DNA from: Dysgonamonadaceae bacterium
Lineage (GTDB): Bacteria; Bacteroidota; Bacteroidia; Bacteroidales; Azobacteroidaceae
DNA: 38,819 nt
Assembly (NCBI GenBank): GCA_031275735.1
Contig: JAISOJ010000056.1
Span: 1-38,819, forward strand
Reading direction: 5' to 3'
The position numbers and the translations under genes are program-made. This document shows positions 20,109 through 31,738 of this stretch, one piece after another; the first letter of the stretch is position 1; every line of letters begins with the position of its first letter. The notes beneath the pieces are model-generated. The model saw only the letters and a program-made list of their open reading frames with translations. It did not search any database and was not told the origin of the DNA.

Positions 20109-20573
20109 CTAGAGAGGTATATCTCGAATAATAGGAATGGCGTCTATTCTTGCCTGGTGCCTTCCGCCGTCAAAAGGAGTGCTTAGGAAAACAGTCACTA
20201 TCTTTTCCGCTAAATCCATCGAAAGAAACCTGCCCGGAAGCGCTAAAATATTGGCGTCGTTATGTGCTCTTGCTAAACGAGTAATTTCTTCATTCCAACA
20301 CAAAGCCGATCGAATGGCAGCATGTTTATTGAGGGTAATATTAATTCCATTTCCGGAACCGCAAACGCCGATGCCCCTTTGTATTTCACTTTTTTCAACC
20401 GCTTCGGCTAATTTATGTCCAAAAACGGCATAATCAACGCTTTCAGCGCTGTAAGTTCCATAATCAATGTAGGGGATATCTTTTTTGTCCAAAAGAACCC
20501 GAATAAACTCTTTTAATTCATAACCCGCATGATCGGACGCCAATCCGACTATACCTCGATTCGTATTTTCCAT
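20109..20573 (-). CDS. rpiB: Ribose 5-phosphate isomerase B
   Basis: RpiB interconverts ribulose 5-phosphate and ribose 5-phosphate in the non-oxidative pentose phosphate pathway. The 154-aa protein has the LacAB/RpiB family motifs LASDHAGYELKE (Asp14-His15), GIGVCGSGNGINI with the catalytic-base Cys71, and RAHNDANILALPGRF with His104. No -7 element is visible immediately upstream. It lies downstream of transketolase on the same strand, so it is probably read from the tkt promoter. The ~105-bp inverted-repeat element at 20602-20714 separates the two. Confidence 0.96.
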   Translation of the reverse strand: MENTNRGIVGLASDHAGYELKEFIRVLLDKKDIPYIDYGTYSAESVDYAVFGHKLAEAVEKSEIQRGIGVCGSGNGINITLNKHAAIRSALCWNEEITRLARAHNDANILALPGRFLSMDLAEKIVTVFLSTPFDGGRHQARIDAIPIIRDIPL

Positions 20574-20601
20574 TTATATTATGTGCAAATCAGTGAAAAA
20601 C

Positions 20602-20714
20602 AGGGCGACTCTAAAAACCCCAAACTTTGCGTTACGCCCCGTCGACAAAATGCTCATATTTTACTCCGCTTTTGTCTCTGTCGCAAGCCTTGATTTTGGG
20701 ATTTTTAGAGGTCC
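20602..20714 (-). repeat. Inverted-repeat-ended element, copy A
   Basis: The core (20609-20710) begins CTCTAAAAACCCCAAA and ends TTTGGGATTTTTAGAG, a 16-bp terminal inverted repeat with one mismatch. An inner GACAAAA/TTTTGTC pair is also present. It is a reverse-oriented copy of 24043-24152: the right arm (20670-20710) matches 41 of 41 bases and the left arm (20609-20657) 45 of 49, all differences being transitions. Only the centre differs in length, by about 8 nt. Similarity may extend to an outer AGGGC. It carries no reading frame of note and sits 22 nt after the ancestral tkt stop. It looks like a non-autonomous MITE-like element or a mobile RNA hairpin. Confidence 0.85.
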
Positions 20715-20736
20715 GGTAATAAATACAATTTACTAT

Positions 20737-20829
20737 TCACAGAATTAATTTAACTTGTTTATAAACATTTTCTCCGGTAAAACCTAATTTCTCATCTAAA
20801 ACTTTATACGGGGCAGAAAAACCAAACGA
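20737..20829 (-). pseudogene. Conserved but untranslated transketolase C-terminal tail
   Basis: Directly after the TAG that ends transketolase, the same frame stays open for 30 codons to a TGA at 20737-20739. It encodes a tail starting SFGFSAPYKVLDEKLG and ending VYKQVKLIL, which is the expected end of bacterial transketolases. With it the protein would have 673 residues plus the TAG position, the normal length. Confidence 0.88.
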
Positions 20830-22761
20830 CTACAATCCCCAGATTTTACCTTCGCTACCAACCAAACCCAAAAGGTTGACAGGTAAGCCGGCGGTCAAAC
20901 CAAAGATTTTTTTACCCGGAATGATTACTGAATCTTGATATTCTTTGGGTTGACTACGAAACAAACCTTCAGAGGGAACAGAAACAATCCGGACTTTTAT
21001 TCCTTCTTTTCTTAATAGTGCAGCGCCTTCGAGTAAAGTAGCTACTTCTGAACCTGAGGCTAATAAAATAACATCTGCATTGCCATCACATTCAACTACA
21101 TACGCGCCTTTGGCAGCTTTTAATGCTTCGTTATAACGGTTTTCTTCAGCAGGTAAATCGCTTATGTTCTGCCGGGAAAAGATAAGTCCTGTAGGCGTGC
21201 TTGTATTTTCCATAGCTAACTTCCAAGCAACAGTAGTTTCATGAACGTCGGCAGGACGTAATACTAGCATTGAATTGCGTCCTTTGTGATTCTTTAATTT
21301 TTCCATTAACCGGATTTGCGCTTCTTGTTCCACCGGTTCATGAGTTGGTCCGTCTTCTCCCACACGGAAAGCATCGTGCGTCCAAATAAATTTAACAGGA
21401 AGCTCCATTAATGCCGCCATACGAATAGCCGGTTTCATATAATCCGAGAAAACAAAGAAAGTGCCACATGCGGGAACAACTCCGCCATACAAAGCCATTC
21501 CTATGCATAAACAAGCCATAGTCAATTCGGAAACGCCTGCTTGTAAAAAAGAACCGGAAAAATCGTTCTTCGTAATCATTCGTGTTTGTTTCAAAAAACC
21601 ATCTGTTTTGTCCGAGTTGGATAAATCGGCTGAAGAAACAATCATATTTTCCACCTGTTTTGCTAAAACGCTCAAAACGGTAGCGGAAGCGGCGCGTGTC
21701 GACTGATTCGGTTTCTGTTCAATAGCCGCCCAATCAATAAAAGGTATTTGCCCTGATAACCAAAAAGCTAATTTTTTTGCTTTCTCAGGATGGGCTTTTG
21801 CCCAGATTTCGTGCTCTACATTCTTTTGAGCAACAATTTTTTTCAATTCTTCACTTCTTTCTTTGTATAATTGCTCCACTTCCGGAAATATTTGAAAAGG
21901 ATTTTGTGGGTCTCCTCCCAGATTTTCAATGGTTTTTTCGAAAGAAGCGCCGGATTCTCCTAATGGCATTCCATGTGTAGCACATTCATTTTCAAAAGAT
22001 TTGCCATCGGCTTTAAGAGCTCCTTTACCCATAATTGTTTTACCTATGATAAGAGTAGGACGTTCTTTTTCGAGTTGTGCTTGGGCAAGAGCTTCTACAA
22101 TGGCTTCCGTATCATTTCCATTGATTTCGATCACATTCCATCCCCATGCCTGATATTTGAGTCCTACATTTTCACTGCTAACGGCGCTTACGGTAGTTGA
22201 AAGTTGTATATCATTGGAGTCGTAAAACATAATTAGATTATTTAGGCCCAAATGTCCGGCCATACGACCGGCGCCTTGGGATATTTCCTCCTGAATTCCT
22301 CCATCGGATATATACGCATAAATTTTTTGCTTGGATGGTCTTCCGGTTTTTGCATCCAAAAATTTAGCGGCGATGGCGGCTCCTACGGCATAAGTATGCC
22401 CTTGTCCGAGAGGACCGGACGTATTTTCAATACCATGTAAAACATCAACTTCAGGATGTCCGGGAGTAATACTCCCCCACTGGCGGAATTGTTTCAAATC
22501 GTCTAAAGAAAATTTACCAGATAAAGTCAGAACAGAATACAACATTGGCGACATGTGTCCCGGATCTAAAAAGAAGCGATCGCGTCCTTCCCAACAGGGA
22601 TTCTCAGGATCATATATAAGAAATTTACTGTAAAGTACATGGATAAAATCGGCGCCACCCATTGCTCCTCCCGGATGTCCTGATTTAGCTTTTTCTACCA
22701 TAGATGCAGCCAAAATACGGATGTTATCGGCGCCTTGATCAAATAGATTCTTTTTATTCAT
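20830..22761 (-). CDS. tkt: Transketolase, interrupted by an in-frame TAG near the C-terminus
   Basis: This thiamine-diphosphate enzyme transfers two-carbon units in the pentose phosphate pathway. The 643 residues before the TAG include the N-terminal AKSGHPGGAMGGADF block and the ThDP/Mg motif region (SDGGIQEEISQGAGRMAGHLGLNNLIMFYDSND). The pyrimidine domain has FIWTHDAFRVGEDGPTHEPVEQ, and the C-terminal domain runs to GLVGSEGKIWGL. The stop at 20830-20832 replaces a residue between WGL and SFGFSAP. TAG is a normal stop for several genes here (PBP1A, purA, rplS), so general reassignment is unlikely. The truncation removes the last part of the C-terminal domain; activity could survive, be rescued by readthrough, or be lost. 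A sequencing error is also possible. Confidence 0.93.
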   Translation of the reverse strand: MNKKNLFDQGADNIRILAASMVEKAKSGHPGGAMGGADFIHVLYSKFLIYDPENPCWEGRDRFFLDPGHMSPMLYSVLTLSGKFSLDDLKQFRQWGSITPGHPEVDVLHGIENTSGPLGQGHTYAVGAAIAAKFLDAKTGRPSKQKIYAYISDGGIQEEISQGAGRMAGHLGLNNLIMFYDSNDIQLSTTVSAVSSENVGLKYQAWGWNVIEINGNDTEAIVEALAQAQLEKERPTLIIGKTIMGKGALKADGKSFENECATHGMPLGESGASFEKTIENLGGDPQNPFQIFPEVEQLYKERSEELKKIVAQKNVEHEIWAKAHPEKAKKLAFWLSGQIPFIDWAAIEQKPNQSTRAASATVLSVLAKQVENMIVSSADLSNSDKTDGFLKQTRMITKNDFSGSFLQAGVSELTMACLCIGMALYGGVVPACGTFFVFSDYMKPAIRMAALMELPVKFIWTHDAFRVGEDGPTHEPVEQEAQIRLMEKLKNHKGRNSMLVLRPADVHETTVAWKLAMENTSTPTGLIFSRQNISDLPAEENRYNEALKAAKGAYVVECDGNADVILLASGSEVATLLEGAALLRKEGIKVRIVSVPSEGLFRSQPKEYQDSVIIPGKKIFGLTAGLPVNLLGLVGSEGKIWGL

Positions 22762-22854
22762 AGAAATATGTATTATTAAATTTTAGATTACACGATAAAT
22801 CTTCTTGTAAGAGTTATTTGTCCAACATTTCAAAGTAAATTCAAAATAACAAAA

Positions 22855-22862
22855 CAAAAATA
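22855..22862 (-). promoter_or_regulatory. Possible -7 element for tkt
   Basis: On the minus strand this reads TATTTTTG. It is about 94 nt upstream of the tkt ATG in an A-rich region with no clear -33 box. It is weak and offered only because no better match lies in this gap. Confidence 0.3.
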
Positions 22863-22896
22863 AGGAAAAAGATTGAATTTACATATAAATTCTAAT

Positions 22897-23703
22897 TCAT
22901 TTATTGCTTTTTTTTACATTGTTTTTAAAATCCGAAATCCACACATTCAAACTATCTAATAAAACGGGGGATGTTTTCCTGACAGCCCATGCTTGTAATT
23001 GGGTAAAACTAATATCTGTTTCAATATCTATTTCAGGAAAAAATACGCTATTTTTCATAGCTAATTCCTTATCCAGTACAGCGTAATCAATTTCCTTACT
23101 GGCTACCATATAAATTAATTGTTCTGTAGTACATTCCATTTCTTTAACGTAAATGGGTTCCGCTATTTCTTCGGAAAGATTTCGCAATCGTAAAATAGAA
23201 GAAGAATTTTGCGAGACATATACTTCTTTACCGGCTAGATCTATCTGATTACGGATAAAAAATACGGTGTCGCCCGGAGCGGGTTGCCTCTGCACCAAAA
23301 CCTGTTTACCTAAAGCAATAGGGACAGTAAAAGATAAAATTTTTCTATTTTCATTGGTTATCGGAATATTGTGCGCTATAACATCATAAGTATTATTTTC
23401 TAATTTTTTGACGCATATTTCCAGGTTATTTTCTAGAAAGATATTCACAGTCAAACCGGAACGCCTTTCAATATATTTACACAAATCGTACTGTAATCCG
23501 GTTATTGTATCTCCTGAAACACAATAATTAACTAAATTATATTCCGTTACTACATTCAGTATTCCTTCTTGATTGATGTGGGAAAAATCTCTTTTGGAAC
23601 GGGTATTCTTTTCTATTATATTATTCATTAGTATGCTAAAAACGATAATAACAAAACTACTCAATAAATAAGGAAGTATATTACTAATCTTTGTTATTTT
23701 CAT
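22897..23703 (-). CDS. Periplasmic solute-binding-like protein (SBP family 3 fold)
   Basis: The 268-aa protein has one N-terminal membrane anchor (ILPYLLSSFVIIVFSILMNNII) and then an extracellular solute-binding family 3-like domain. Visible landmarks are GILNVVTEYN, TGLQYDLCKYIERRSGLTVNIFLEN, the YDVIAHNIPITNENRKILSFTVPIALGKQVLVQR block, LAGKEVYVSQNSSSILRLR and KEIDYAVLDKELAM. This resembles the sensor half of MltF-type murein lyases or amino-acid-binding proteins, but there is no lytic transglycosylase domain. No transport genes are adjacent, so a tethered sensor role is as plausible as uptake. It has its own promoter and lies upstream of tkt on the same strand with a 135-nt gap. Confidence 0.72.
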   Translation of the reverse strand: MKITKISNILPYLLSSFVIIVFSILMNNIIEKNTRSKRDFSHINQEGILNVVTEYNLVNYCVSGDTITGLQYDLCKYIERRSGLTVNIFLENNLEICVKKLENNTYDVIAHNIPITNENRKILSFTVPIALGKQVLVQRQPAPGDTVFFIRNQIDLAGKEVYVSQNSSSILRLRNLSEEIAEPIYVKEMECTTEQLIYMVASKEIDYAVLDKELAMKNSVFFPEIDIETDISFTQLQAWAVRKTSPVLLDSLNVWISDFKNNVKKSNK

Positions 23704-23743
23704 GAGTATTTCATTTTATAATTTTGATATTTACATTACCCCG

Positions 23744-23776
23744 CAAAGTTAAGATTTTTTATTTAATATAGACAAA
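23744..23776 (-). promoter_or_regulatory. Promoter of the solute-binding-like gene
   Basis: Minus-strand TTTG (23773-23776) and TAACTTTG (23744-23751) are separated by 21 nt. The ATG at 23703 follows about 40 nt later. Confidence 0.75.
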
Positions 23777-24037
23777 ATATATACAAATTTGCGATGTAGT
23801 GATGATCACCGGCTTCCTTCTTGCTCTAATAAATGGTTAAGCTCTACGTCCAATCAAATTCTTCGCCTTTGTTAGGAGAACAGGAGGAAGGAGGCAATTT
23901 GTTTTTTTGTCGCGAATACACTAATTTTTACGAATAAATCAGTACCAAATTCGTGTATTAGCAGCAAAAAATTTCAGATAATTTATGGGCGAGTCAGGAA
24001 TTGGAAACTCTGTTATCTCTGAATCTTCAATAATATG

Positions 24038-24158
24038 GGTACCTCTAAAAATCCCAAAATCAAGGCTTGCGACAGAGACAAAACAGAGTTTACTTAAAAG
24101 TAAATGAGCATTTTGTCGACGGAGCGTAACGCAGGGTTTGAGGTTTTTAGAGATGCCC
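24038..24158 (+). repeat. Inverted-repeat-ended element, copy B
   Basis: The core at 24043-24152 (110 bp) begins CTCTAAAAATCCCAAA and ends TTTGAGGTTTTTAGAG. It is the inverted counterpart of copy A between tkt and rpiB: 24043-24083 matches copy A at 41 of 41 positions, and 24104-24152 at 45 of 49. Its centre contains an extra small palindrome, TTTACTTTTAAGTAAA. Outer flanks GGG...CCC extend the palindrome by a few bases. No open frame of note lies inside. Confidence 0.85.
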
Positions 24159-24200
24159 TTATATGATAACGCAGTTTATGACTGGGCATAGTATAAGTAA

Positions 24201-24231
24201 AATCGGTTGGCGGCAAAGCCGCCGACCGATT
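24201..24231 (-). terminator. GC-rich hairpin, probable terminator of the susCD operon
   Basis: AATCGGTTGGCGGC and GCCGCCGACCGATT form a 14-bp stem with one G-T pair and an AAA loop. On the minus strand TTTTAC follows. It lies about 137 nt beyond the stop of the last operon gene. Confidence 0.65.
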
Positions 24232-24367
24232 CCACTCCCTTTATTTATGCGGGTTTCCCGTCATGTCGAACGAAGCGCTTAAGTGCATATTTGAAACATC
24301 TGCCTTGAAGCTGATACGACTGAAATACACCCTTTGAACGCTCTCTTGTCTATTCAAAAACGTTTGT

Positions 24368-26365
24368 TTAGAAAACCGGACCCGGCTTCATACCTTTTTG
24401 TAACATCTTTTTAACGGATGTTTTACCTTGAACGGCAAAGTTGTTTTTTAAACATTTTTGTTTTTTAGCCACAGAATCTTTTTTCAAGATTTTACTTGTC
24501 AACTGCCGAGAAACGGTATTTTTCTGTGTCAAAGCTCGTTCTTTGGACTGAGGAGTAAATTTCAAGTTGTAATATCCGTCAACCCAACCACCTGCAGCGT
24601 CACTTCTGAGGAGATAACCGTCCGCTTCAGATGTCGCTGTCATTATCAGATTACCAGCCATATTGAAATTAAAGTCCATAGTAGCAGTTGTACTGACATC
24701 GCCTTCGGGAGTAGTGGTATATAAGGTAATATCAAACGTTTCATAATCAGCCAATTCTTGCGGGGCGATAGACAATGTACTTGTCCCCGGATCAAATGTA
24801 GCCTTTACTTCTTCGGCAAGATCAATACCTGTGATTACAAATGTATTTTCCGATTCTCCGGCGGCAATTGTAACGTCCATATCAGCATCGGGGTAGCCGG
24901 CAAACTGACTTGATGCAGTTAATTTGTAATTGCCTTGGAAATCGGTTATTGCATACGAAACCGGATCTTTTGAATAGTAGAACGTTTCGGCAAATTCGCC
25001 TACAACCGTTCCGTCTTCGTAATGGAATTTTAATCCGAAAGTATAAATTGTAACACCTTTATTGCTAATTTGTACACTCGATTCAATATTGTCACTTGGA
25101 GATATATAAATATCATTTCCATACACTTTTCTACCTGTTTCCTGTCCTGTAGGAATAGAAATAGACTTACCGTTGTAATAAAATGCTAATCCAAAACCAT
25201 CTGCATATAAATTTGCCAAATAGAACAAATCTTTATATTCGCTTTCTTCATTATCCGGATCAATATCTATTGCTTTTGAAAAACTCTGACTCCAACTTTC
25301 ACTGTATGCAGCAGATTCGAATTCGCTTACAACTCCTTCTATTTCTTCATATTCAATTCCGTTAAAATCATCTATTTTCAGATTAGCCGCAATATATGCC
25401 GCTTTGGTTGTGTAAATAATCGTTGGAGTGGAACATGGATATTTACCTCCATTGTTGTAATTTTCCATACTTACGTACAGTGAATTTGCAGGGAAAGTAA
25501 TTATATCTCCGTCTTCTCCTTTTTCATAAATCCCCAAAGGATAAGAATCAATATCGGTGGACAAATTACCATAAATAGAGCCGATGCTGAACATTCCGTC
25601 ACCCCATGTAACGCCTAATTCGCAAGGAGCCATAGAAACGTTCCCGTCTTTATCTATTTCAATAACGGTGTAATAATTTTTCGTTTCATCTACATCTCCC
25701 GGCCAATTATAATAATAACCGTTATATATGCCGTCGGCATCCGCTTCCGGTATATATTCATCGCCTTGCCAAGCGCCGGGGGTCGCAACCCTGTACGCAT
25801 TTTTAAAACGATAACGCACGGCATTTCCTACCTCTGCTTTTTCAGTTTCTACATACATCGGAAGTTGGCCTACTCCATAAAAAGTAAGGAATGTTCCGTC
25901 GACATATACAAACGGGTCTACTACATTCCATTTGATACGCGTTACATTTGTTGACAAAAAAGGAGATGCTTGGGCATATTCATCCACAAATTCACTTCCC
26001 GAAACAGACAATTTCAAGTTGTAAGTAATCCCTTCGGCAGCTGTTGGGAAAGTTACCGTAAATGTTGTTACTTTTTCCTTGTCGGCAAAAGCCGCTTTTT
26101 CAGGAACAACAAATACATCTTCATCGTTTACGTCTACTGTAATAGGCACTTCAATATCTCCAACCGAATCGGTACGGGCAATCGTAATTGTTATTTCAGT
26201 CGGTTCGGTGGGTTCCAATTCCACAGTCGCCTGATTGTTTGTCGGAAAATATATTCCCTTGCAATTTTCGGGAGTAACAGGCGATGTTTCCCGTTCGGGG
26301 ATGTCCTCTGTACAAGCGGCAAAACCGAACAATATCAAACTTATTGCTAAAATACATTGTTTCAT
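24368..26365 (-). CDS. SusCD-associated surface lipoprotein with basic C-terminal tail
   Basis: The 665-aa protein has a lipoprotein signal (LILFGFAACTED, Cys18). Residues ~45-130 form a Calx-beta/cadherin-like Ig fold (VELEPTEPTEITITIARTDS onward), and the rest is beta-rich without a fold I recognise. Its place, 30 nt after susD in the same operon, suggests a surface ligand-binding protein that helps SusCD, like SusE/SusF in position but not clearly in sequence. The last ~59 residues (607-665, SKERALTQK to MKPGPVF) are unusual: 14 Lys and 2 Arg against two acidic residues, while the protein before it is strongly acidic. The tail may be a real extension, or result from a frameshift or fusion near 24545. 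Confidence 0.7.
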   Translation of the reverse strand: MKQCILAISLILFGFAACTEDIPERETSPVTPENCKGIYFPTNNQATVELEPTEPTEITITIARTDSVGDIEVPITVDVNDEDVFVVPEKAAFADKEKVTTFTVTFPTAAEGITYNLKLSVSGSEFVDEYAQASPFLSTNVTRIKWNVVDPFVYVDGTFLTFYGVGQLPMYVETEKAEVGNAVRYRFKNAYRVATPGAWQGDEYIPEADADGIYNGYYYNWPGDVDETKNYYTVIEIDKDGNVSMAPCELGVTWGDGMFSIGSIYGNLSTDIDSYPLGIYEKGEDGDIITFPANSLYVSMENYNNGGKYPCSTPTIIYTTKAAYIAANLKIDDFNGIEYEEIEGVVSEFESAAYSESWSQSFSKAIDIDPDNEESEYKDLFYLANLYADGFGLAFYYNGKSISIPTGQETGRKVYGNDIYISPSDNIESSVQISNKGVTIYTFGLKFHYEDGTVVGEFAETFYYSKDPVSYAITDFQGNYKLTASSQFAGYPDADMDVTIAAGESENTFVITGIDLAEEVKATFDPGTSTLSIAPQELADYETFDITLYTTTPEGDVSTTATMDFNFNMAGNLIMTATSEADGYLLRSDAAGGWVDGYYNLKFTPQSKERALTQKNTVSRQLTSKILKKDSVAKKQKCLKNNFAVQGKTSVKKMLQKGMKPGPVF

Positions 26366-31249: not shown

Positions 31250-31448
31250 AAATTTTACTTTAAATTAAACACTATTATTTAAACAACTCACTATAATTAA
31301 AATATTTATACGAAATAAAAGTAAGAGAAAACAAACAAATGCTTTCCGAAAACAAAAGCAAAAAAAGATATAGGGAAAACGGCTTAACTTTTGGATAAAA
31401 AAGCAAGCTGTATTTGTTTTTTTGGAAAATTTTTTGTAAATTACGCCG

Positions 31449-31627
<179 letters not shown>

Positions 31628-31738
31628 TACTCATAATCAAATAAAAAATACATATTGTTTGATAACTCCCATCAAATACAATCAAATTTCGTAAAAAAGA
31701 GAATAATACCTATTATATTGACATGTATATTGGAACAA

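Follow-up and report, generated by a model that had tools for sequence, protein, structure and literature searches.

ERIC-like inverted repeats around tkt in a Dysgonamonadaceae bacterium: probable MITEs whose hairpin core is conserved and whose ends are exchangeable

Two opposed copies around tkt

The stretch of DNA analyzed here (the window) comprises positions 1 to 38,819 of contig JAISOJ010000056.1, from the assembly of a Dysgonamonadaceae bacterium (GCA_031275735.1; order Bacteroidales). Within it, a segment carrying tkt and a solute-binding gene is flanked by two reverse-complement copies of an inverted-repeat element of about 110-130 bp, discussed here as a probable ERIC-like miniature inverted-repeat transposable element (MITE). 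The opposed copies had been noticed from the sequence alone (the original prediction) and are confirmed by two inverted pairs: I2 (20670-20712 with 24041-24083), complementary at 43/43 nt, and I1 (20602-20657 with 24104-24159), 56 nt long and 89% complementary.

Copy B (20602-20712) has its forward strand, recognized by the order TCA..CTC, on the + strand, and copy A (about 24033-24162) has it on the - strand; both were identified by inverted-repeat comparison and by their match to R1, a 73-position covariance model built from 52 cores (alignment A1), copy A being one of these seeds. The core of copy A (24060-24133, -; 57.8 bits, E 8.2e-13) retains both internal loops and an intact tip hairpin, TTTACTTTTAAGTAAA (24089-24104, -), which was read from the sequence and has a 5-bp stem, TTTAC/GTAAA; the TCA/CTC internal loop flanking it (24105-24107 and 24086-24088, -) is conserved across the aligned copies. 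The core of copy B, from GCGTT to GCCTTG (20628-20693, +; 48.2 bits, E 2.9e-10), has mostly lost its tip stem: 3 nt replace 11 model positions and most of the tip hairpin is gone, which locates the length difference that had been noted between the two cores. The terminal inverted repeats of copy B lie at 20602-20624 (AGGGCGACTCTAAAAACCCCAAA, +; inverted pairs I1 and I7) and 20695-20712 (-; I7), and pair over 16 nt at 94% (20609-20624/20695-20710); those of copy A, at 24137-24162 (ATAAGGGCATCTCTAAAAACCTCAAA on the - strand; inverted pair) and 24033-24058 (+; I3), pair over 26 nt at 81%. The values first given for the two arms (41/41 and 45/49) and for the ends (16 bp) are close to those measured, and the ends of copy A reach further out, with GGG at 24037-24039 and CCC at 24156-24158 as outer letters.

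When folded as single-stranded DNA, the two copies were equaled or beaten by 1 and 2 of 200 dinucleotide shuffles (z -3.1 and -3.3). No open reading frame (ORF) of at least 80 aa in the window's ORF list runs across copy A or copy B, and after these two the next best R1 match in the window has an E value of only 1.7. In size the elements fall within the 50-500 bp of MITEs with terminal inverted repeats, many copies measuring about 118-150 bp, and they are scattered, with no transposase gene inside. An additional near-perfect hairpin (AATCGGTTGGCGGCAAAGCCGCCGACCGATT) adjoins copy A at 24201-24231.

It had also been suggested that the opposed copies could drive inversion of the tkt segment. Only the geometry speaks for such a switch, which is hardly credible: copies A and B are unequal in the tip and in one of the arms, and in other places the copies occur dispersed over many contigs and on either strand. 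The two window copies probably arose by independent insertion.

The hairpin core, its hosts and its relation to ERIC

The copies share one plan: a tip hairpin, a TCA/CTC internal loop, a variable complementary stem, a GTT/GCCTT loop and terminal inverted repeats. On the forward strand the order towards the tip is terminal repeat ... GCGTT - stem - AAAA - TGC - TCA - TTTAC - short loop, and from the tip outward GTAAA - CTC - CGC - TTTT - stem - GCCTTG ... terminal repeat. When copies are aligned side by side, it is the centre that is best kept, not an arm; the perfect conservation of one arm that had been pointed out thus holds for copies A and B, while it is the two loops and the tip that are conserved over the copies as a whole.

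R1 took in 52 of 60 cores, eight being omitted as indel-rich, variant-tip or near-duplicate rows; its seeds had been found by an exact tip pattern or by DNA similarity, so that the tip conservation of A1 is partly due to selection. In A1, 94.5% of the cells are paired compared with 83.0% when partners are shuffled, and 9/15 pairs carry double changes, with 86 two-sided cells against 24.5 in the shuffles. A second alignment, A3, comprises 63 additional copies, found with R1 in Pseudomonas, Nitrosomonas and Halomonas, in an Oligoflexia and a Flammeovirgaceae genome and in two genomes belonging to the window's order; they were located by a tip pattern with at most 4 substitutions per half (63 of the 64 chosen rows, L398 having run off its locus). 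Here 87.0% of the cells are paired against 70.3% shuffled, and 19/21 pairs show compensated double substitutions (195 double-change cells against 51); one of five measures, pair types, was equaled by 28/500 shuffles, and slid structures had much lower scores. Changes on one side only are infrequent (7 against 195 two-sided cells in A3, 13 against 86 in A1), from which the helix appears to be kept Watson-Crick; folded DNA, or copying from arm to arm, would explain this no less well than RNA. The TCA/CTC and GTT/GCCTT loops stay mismatched in most rows while the stems vary. In G123 and G208, two genomes of the order, a variant tip is carried by many copies (L206, L381-L391): CAG-TCA...CTC-CTTG in place of TGC-TCA...CTC-CGC, a form that by eye is the closest to the ERIC tip.

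The genome of the window (2.43 Mb, 76% complete) holds the element at five places: the two in the window, C80, C31 and, in part, C28. At the DNA level, 6/58 genomes match (own included), among them 2/33 other genomes of the same genus, which indicates a patchy presence. With the exact tip pattern, matches occur in 7/295 genomes of the order, its reversed control giving none among the matches listed; R1 finds the core in 73/295 (own included), corresponding to 61/243 good-quality genomes and 58/183 genera, under stricter filters and with 16 candidates scored per genome, so that copy numbers in this survey are floors. The prediction that the element is repeated and spread, forms a hairpin and has terminal inverted repeats, which was to fall if no further copies existed, thus stands, because copies occur in this genome and in related ones. 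In 11 genomes reached via listed loci, R1 at E<=1 gives from 7 to at least 150 matches each, 150 being the number of candidates scored, and G123 has at least 51 matches to one of its own copies (40/166 candidates scored).

Beyond the order, the tip pattern is found in at least 120 stretches of genome contigs. Among the 120 matches listed, 51 belong to Gammaproteobacteria, 37 to Bacteroidia, 18 to Betaproteobacteria, 8 to Mariprofundia, 2 to Oligoflexia and one each to Cytophagia and Chitinophagia, with 2 lacking a class (NCBI rank); none is assigned to Enterobacterales, and 11 have no order. The hosts, for 80 listed stretches out of these at least 120, include Pseudomonas, Halomonas, Chromohalobacter, Nitrosomonas, Gallionella and Mariprofundales, as well as Alistipes, Rikenellaceae, Tannerella, Chitinophaga, Flammeovirgaceae and an Oligoflexia bacterium, among others. 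Used as query, the window element matched nothing in plasmids or phages, and a Pseudomonas copy matched 15 plasmid records and no phage record; three stretches of viral contigs matched. Two plasmid copies from plant-associated Pseudomonas (L249, L250) have coronafacate genes next to them and CTAG on their flanks; a transposase gene of the IS630 family adjoins the former, and one of the IS5 family lies about 1.2 kb from the latter. On a P. veronii plasmid (L245:2659-2804), a second repeat to the right of the element matches stretches annotated elsewhere as IS5-like transposase genes.

Such abundance might indicate a pure passenger, an old MITE that owes the conservation of its core to recent horizontal spread alone, and high copy number, near-identical copies within single genomes (G123, G208) and the presence in 2/33 other genomes of the genus at the DNA level are in keeping with this. 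It is an unlikely account, since stems and ends vary between and within genomes and the loops are mostly constant.

ERIC has been known for decades and serves strain typing. Like ERIC (RU-1, about 127 bp), the present elements are multi-copy, long imperfect hairpins, with a tip formed by TCA, a 5-bp stem, a loop and CTC, a CAG/CTG-type stem beneath it and an outer GCGTT...GCCTT pair; ERIC differs in ending near TATAC/GTATA, compared with GGGYAYCTCTAAAAA here, and, from the window copies, in its stem sequences and host phylum. According to a review (PMC10969869), ERIC is reported from Enterobacteriaceae and Vibrionaceae, and a 2011 paper on ERIC in Gammaproteobacteria is cited there. An ERIC query sequence matched 5373/5426 E. 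coli genomes and 410 plasmid records, mostly of enterobacteria.

The comparison was made in both directions. The seeds of R1 include none from records assigned to Enterobacterales, a few having no finer placement than Gammaproteobacteria. When R1 was run with its filters off on ten ERIC loci (19 kb), its matches of rank 1-6 were ERICs (E 5.8e-5 to 0.0081), and up to E 0.47 it matched 8/10 ERIC loci, each on the same strand as the ERIC and at its tip. Conversely, R2, a model of eight ERICs alone, was searched over 150 kb in 20 sources, where 9/9 matches at E<=1 are cores of the present elements, two of them outside the R1 seeds and confirmed by R1. The core structure and the loop letters of ERIC are thus recovered by R1 on ERICs and by R2 on the other loci. 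Some results count against the link: the two weakest ERIC matches (E 0.39 and 0.47) rank behind an unrelated match at E 0.15; R1 missed 2/10 ERIC loci, one without a tip and one with an aberrant tip; under strict filters, which lose weak matches, it gave 0 matches in four ERIC-holding plasmid records; and R2 matches in 7/20 sources only, the window copies being among the 13 without a match. A whole-length similarity to ERIC, in arms and ends, was not found in the window copies, and a Pseudomonas copy searched against 20,395 E. coli records gave nothing at E<=1e-5. It is concluded from these sequence comparisons that ERIC and the present elements have a common core; the window copies are best called ERIC-like, and not ERIC, because R2 does not match them and the Pseudomonas copy is unmatched in E. 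coli. The element, which the original prediction had left unrecognized, has the core of ERIC.

Terminal repeats, target duplications and mobility

The same core is framed by different ends. They are GGGYAYCTCTAAAAA in window copy A, AGTGYYNGCAAGAAAAC in G123, CAGGCYGTTGAAAAAC in Pseudomonas, GTAACTACTCAG in Mariprofundales, CTTACTGTGTCAC in Nitrosomonadales, GAGACCTTTGCACGG in Nitrosomonas and GAGRSTGAATAAAAAG in Alistipes. A single genome may hold several: among 40 copies fetched from P. xionganensis (G336), at least five kinds of end were assigned by pattern match (17 of type a, 16 of b, 2 with both, one each of c, d and e, and 2 unassigned). Window copy A has an end of type c: its 16-mer GTTTTTAGAGATGCCC (24143-24158, +) recurs unchanged at one end of L335, a copy from this Pseudomonas genome, and close forms occur in L073, from the window's order, in two Pseudomonas loci (L079, L106), in L163 (Chromatiaceae) and in L178 (Tannerella). 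Core and ends therefore both cross phyla, not always together.

Target duplications, proposed in the original prediction as something to look for, are seen at several copies elsewhere, while none is seen at the window copies. All six AGTG-ended copies, five from G123 and one from G277, show a 4-bp duplication (ATAT, ATAT, AAAT, AAGT, AAAT, AATT). Copies of the Mariprofundales type, ended by GTAAC, show exact 8-bp duplications in L091 (AAATCTTC), L104 (ATTTTAGG), L132 (CATTCTGG), L172 (GGAATATC) and L175 (GATGACTT), some of these loci containing several neighboring copies with more than one possible pairing; in L128, of the same type, 7/8 positions match. The 5-bp repeats of the Nitrosomonadales type (ATTAG in L145 and L193, AATAA in L146) need the ends to be moved by 1-2 nt, and L076 and L138 showed no duplication on recheck. 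Pseudomonas copies lie in YTAR sites, which are weak as duplications because they are palindromic.

Similar flanks are described for MITEPsy1 of P. syringae (100 nt), for which the paper reports a 4-nt CTAG/YTAA duplication, IS5-like ends with GTCTGAAAAA and, by its authors, transposition (PMC3189936). The likeness, drawn from this published description, is one of size class, ends and 4-nt YTAR-type flanks, as in the Pseudomonas copies.

Complete partner elements were looked for as well. In G245, end pairs are MITE-sized (139 bp apart). In the window's own genome, the end pattern with at most 3 mismatches hits 13 places, compared with 14 for the reversed control; six are the known copies, and the rest are unpaired on separate contigs. 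In G123, no partner insertion sequence (IS) was found by end pattern or sequence among the matches listed, where one may be overlooked. Two contig ends of this genome (L197 in C53, L200 in C81) have in common the same approximately 85 nt, which start with the MITE terminus AGTGTCAGCAAGAAAAC and lack the core; identical contig ends with the terminus followed by other sequence suggest a longer repeated element lost in assembly, and these are probably termini of an unassembled IS.

From the anatomy and the target duplications, the elements can be regarded as MITEs moved in trans, and the window repeats are probably insertions of a non-autonomous DNA transposon, an ERIC-type MITE in which the hairpin core is conserved while the ends can be exchanged. 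Several results weigh on the other side. Most of the copies printed in a scripted duplication test (alignment scores <34 were not printed), the window copies included, have no clean target duplication, and L139, L192 and other end pairings gave none when rechecked. The full-length version with a transposase, which had been envisaged, did not come to light: there is no complete IS with matching ends in the window's genome, nor in G336 and G327 among the matches listed, and in G123 the terminus without the core was seen only in the two identical contig-end stretches. As to the filled and empty sites also proposed, the plasmid comparison recognized no empty site among the matches listed.

The ends of each group would be recognized in trans by resident transposases that differ between groups, and the 4- and 8-bp, perhaps 5-bp, target duplications would accompany these different ends; the core would be kept for its work as a folded hairpin, be it in a transcript or in DNA that is single-stranded or extruded, and may in this form help the element to persist beside genes. 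The core is common to ERIC and to copies in three phyla, Pseudomonadota, Bacteroidota and Bdellovibrionota (Oligoflexia), and the terminal repeats around it differ. A broader proposal, plausible if short of probable, is that this hairpin module, best known as ERIC, is itself the evolving unit, framed repeatedly by unrelated transposon ends with its loops kept, so that an ancient and widespread protein, or RNA process, would read the loops.

The element appears as a new branch of a known kind, within a superfamily including ERIC that was not met as one family in the literature. In open-licence literature, mostly judged from abstracts, no paper was found joining ERIC to repeats of other phyla, and searches for six core 11- to 15-mers returned only unrelated work, judged by title and abstract. 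What is surprising is the breadth of the family and the exchange of its ends; spanning Pseudomonadota, Bacteroidota and Bdellovibrionota, it offers in its fixed loop pair a concrete target for finding the factor that reads it, and the placement of ERIC in so wide a family points to many hosts where the element may still be active.

REP/REPIN sequences, with their RAYT transposases, are likewise conserved imperfect hairpins of high copy number, and here the likeness is by description only. To our knowledge, no core is in common with Correia/NEMIS, RUP, YPAL or TIMEs. By published descriptions, these too are short, non-autonomous elements with inverted repeats, and RNA folding is described for several of them; the papers drawn upon were PMC10969869, PMC2759123, PMC3189936, PMC4133298 and PMC3091717.

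Orientation among genes and possible function of the core

The orientation of copies relative to mechanically called ORFs was examined for 173/230 copies, the rest having short flanks or a repeated context; 16 copies lay inside ORFs, 8 were far and 2 incomplete. Where the genes on both sides are co-directional, 51 copies have their forward strand in sense and 26 in antisense orientation (2:1; two-sided p 0.006); with longer ORFs the numbers are 51 and 25 (p 0.004). The median distance, with fixed and hence approximate element bounds, is 13 nt to the 3′ end of the adjacent gene and 64 nt to a 5′ end. This closeness to 3′ ends, together with the sense bias, suggests a role or a cost in transcripts.

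It is possible, with some reserve, that the core is an RNA element, which would fold in the transcript of the upstream gene, be processed and set the stability of the neighboring mRNA (tkt/rpiB here), and for this be conserved. The 51:26 preference for the sense strand and the proximity to 3′ ends (13 compared with 64 nt) agree with this, as do the RNase E effects of ERIC in Yersinia transcripts cited in the review (PMC10969869). However, G-U intermediates are rarer (7 against 195, 13 against 86) than expected of an RNA helix, copy B is antisense, and the comparison of G-T with A-C in the A stem (8 against 5) does not decide the strand. This strand test used 230 copies with at least 4/5 tip pairs; its G-C part (34 against 5) was discarded, since a single variant tip type prevailed in it.

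DNA is suggested instead by the lack of G-U intermediates. The core may equally be a hairpin site bound in single-stranded or cruciform DNA by a protein, either a host factor or a transposition accessory, the complementarity of the arms being maintained by hairpin-templated copying together with selection on the two mismatched loops. Double changes that are almost only Watson-Crick, loops that remain mismatched while stems vary, and one core with differing ends all favor this possibility, which leaves the 2:1 orientation bias unexplained; no binding protein was found, and we know of none for the core. The transcript and the DNA role are given about equal weight.

In the window, the tkt-rpiB gap is mostly filled by copy B, whose forward strand is antisense to both genes, the rarer arrangement among the surveyed copies; by the original prediction, an RNA hairpin at this copy could govern how much tkt is made relative to rpiB. 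Copy A is found between two - strand genes, upstream of the solute-binding gene; it runs in the same direction as both, its forward strand being sense. A simple terminator scan of 20401-24400 gave one site, at neither copy; no Rfam family matched the window at gathering score, and in eight other element loci there were two Rfam matches, none at the element. The effects of copies A and B are probably mild at most.

Two further features of the window were observed. The tkt frame (20735-22761, -) contains an in-frame TAG at 20830-20832, behind which 30 further residues remain open (...KIWGL-stop-SFGFSAPYKVLDEKLGFTGENVYKQVKLIL-stop); either a genuine truncation or a fault in the assembly may lie behind this. 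At 31275-31685, a CACACA-type microsatellite lies beside a SusC-like gene and appears as a TH run in an ORF.

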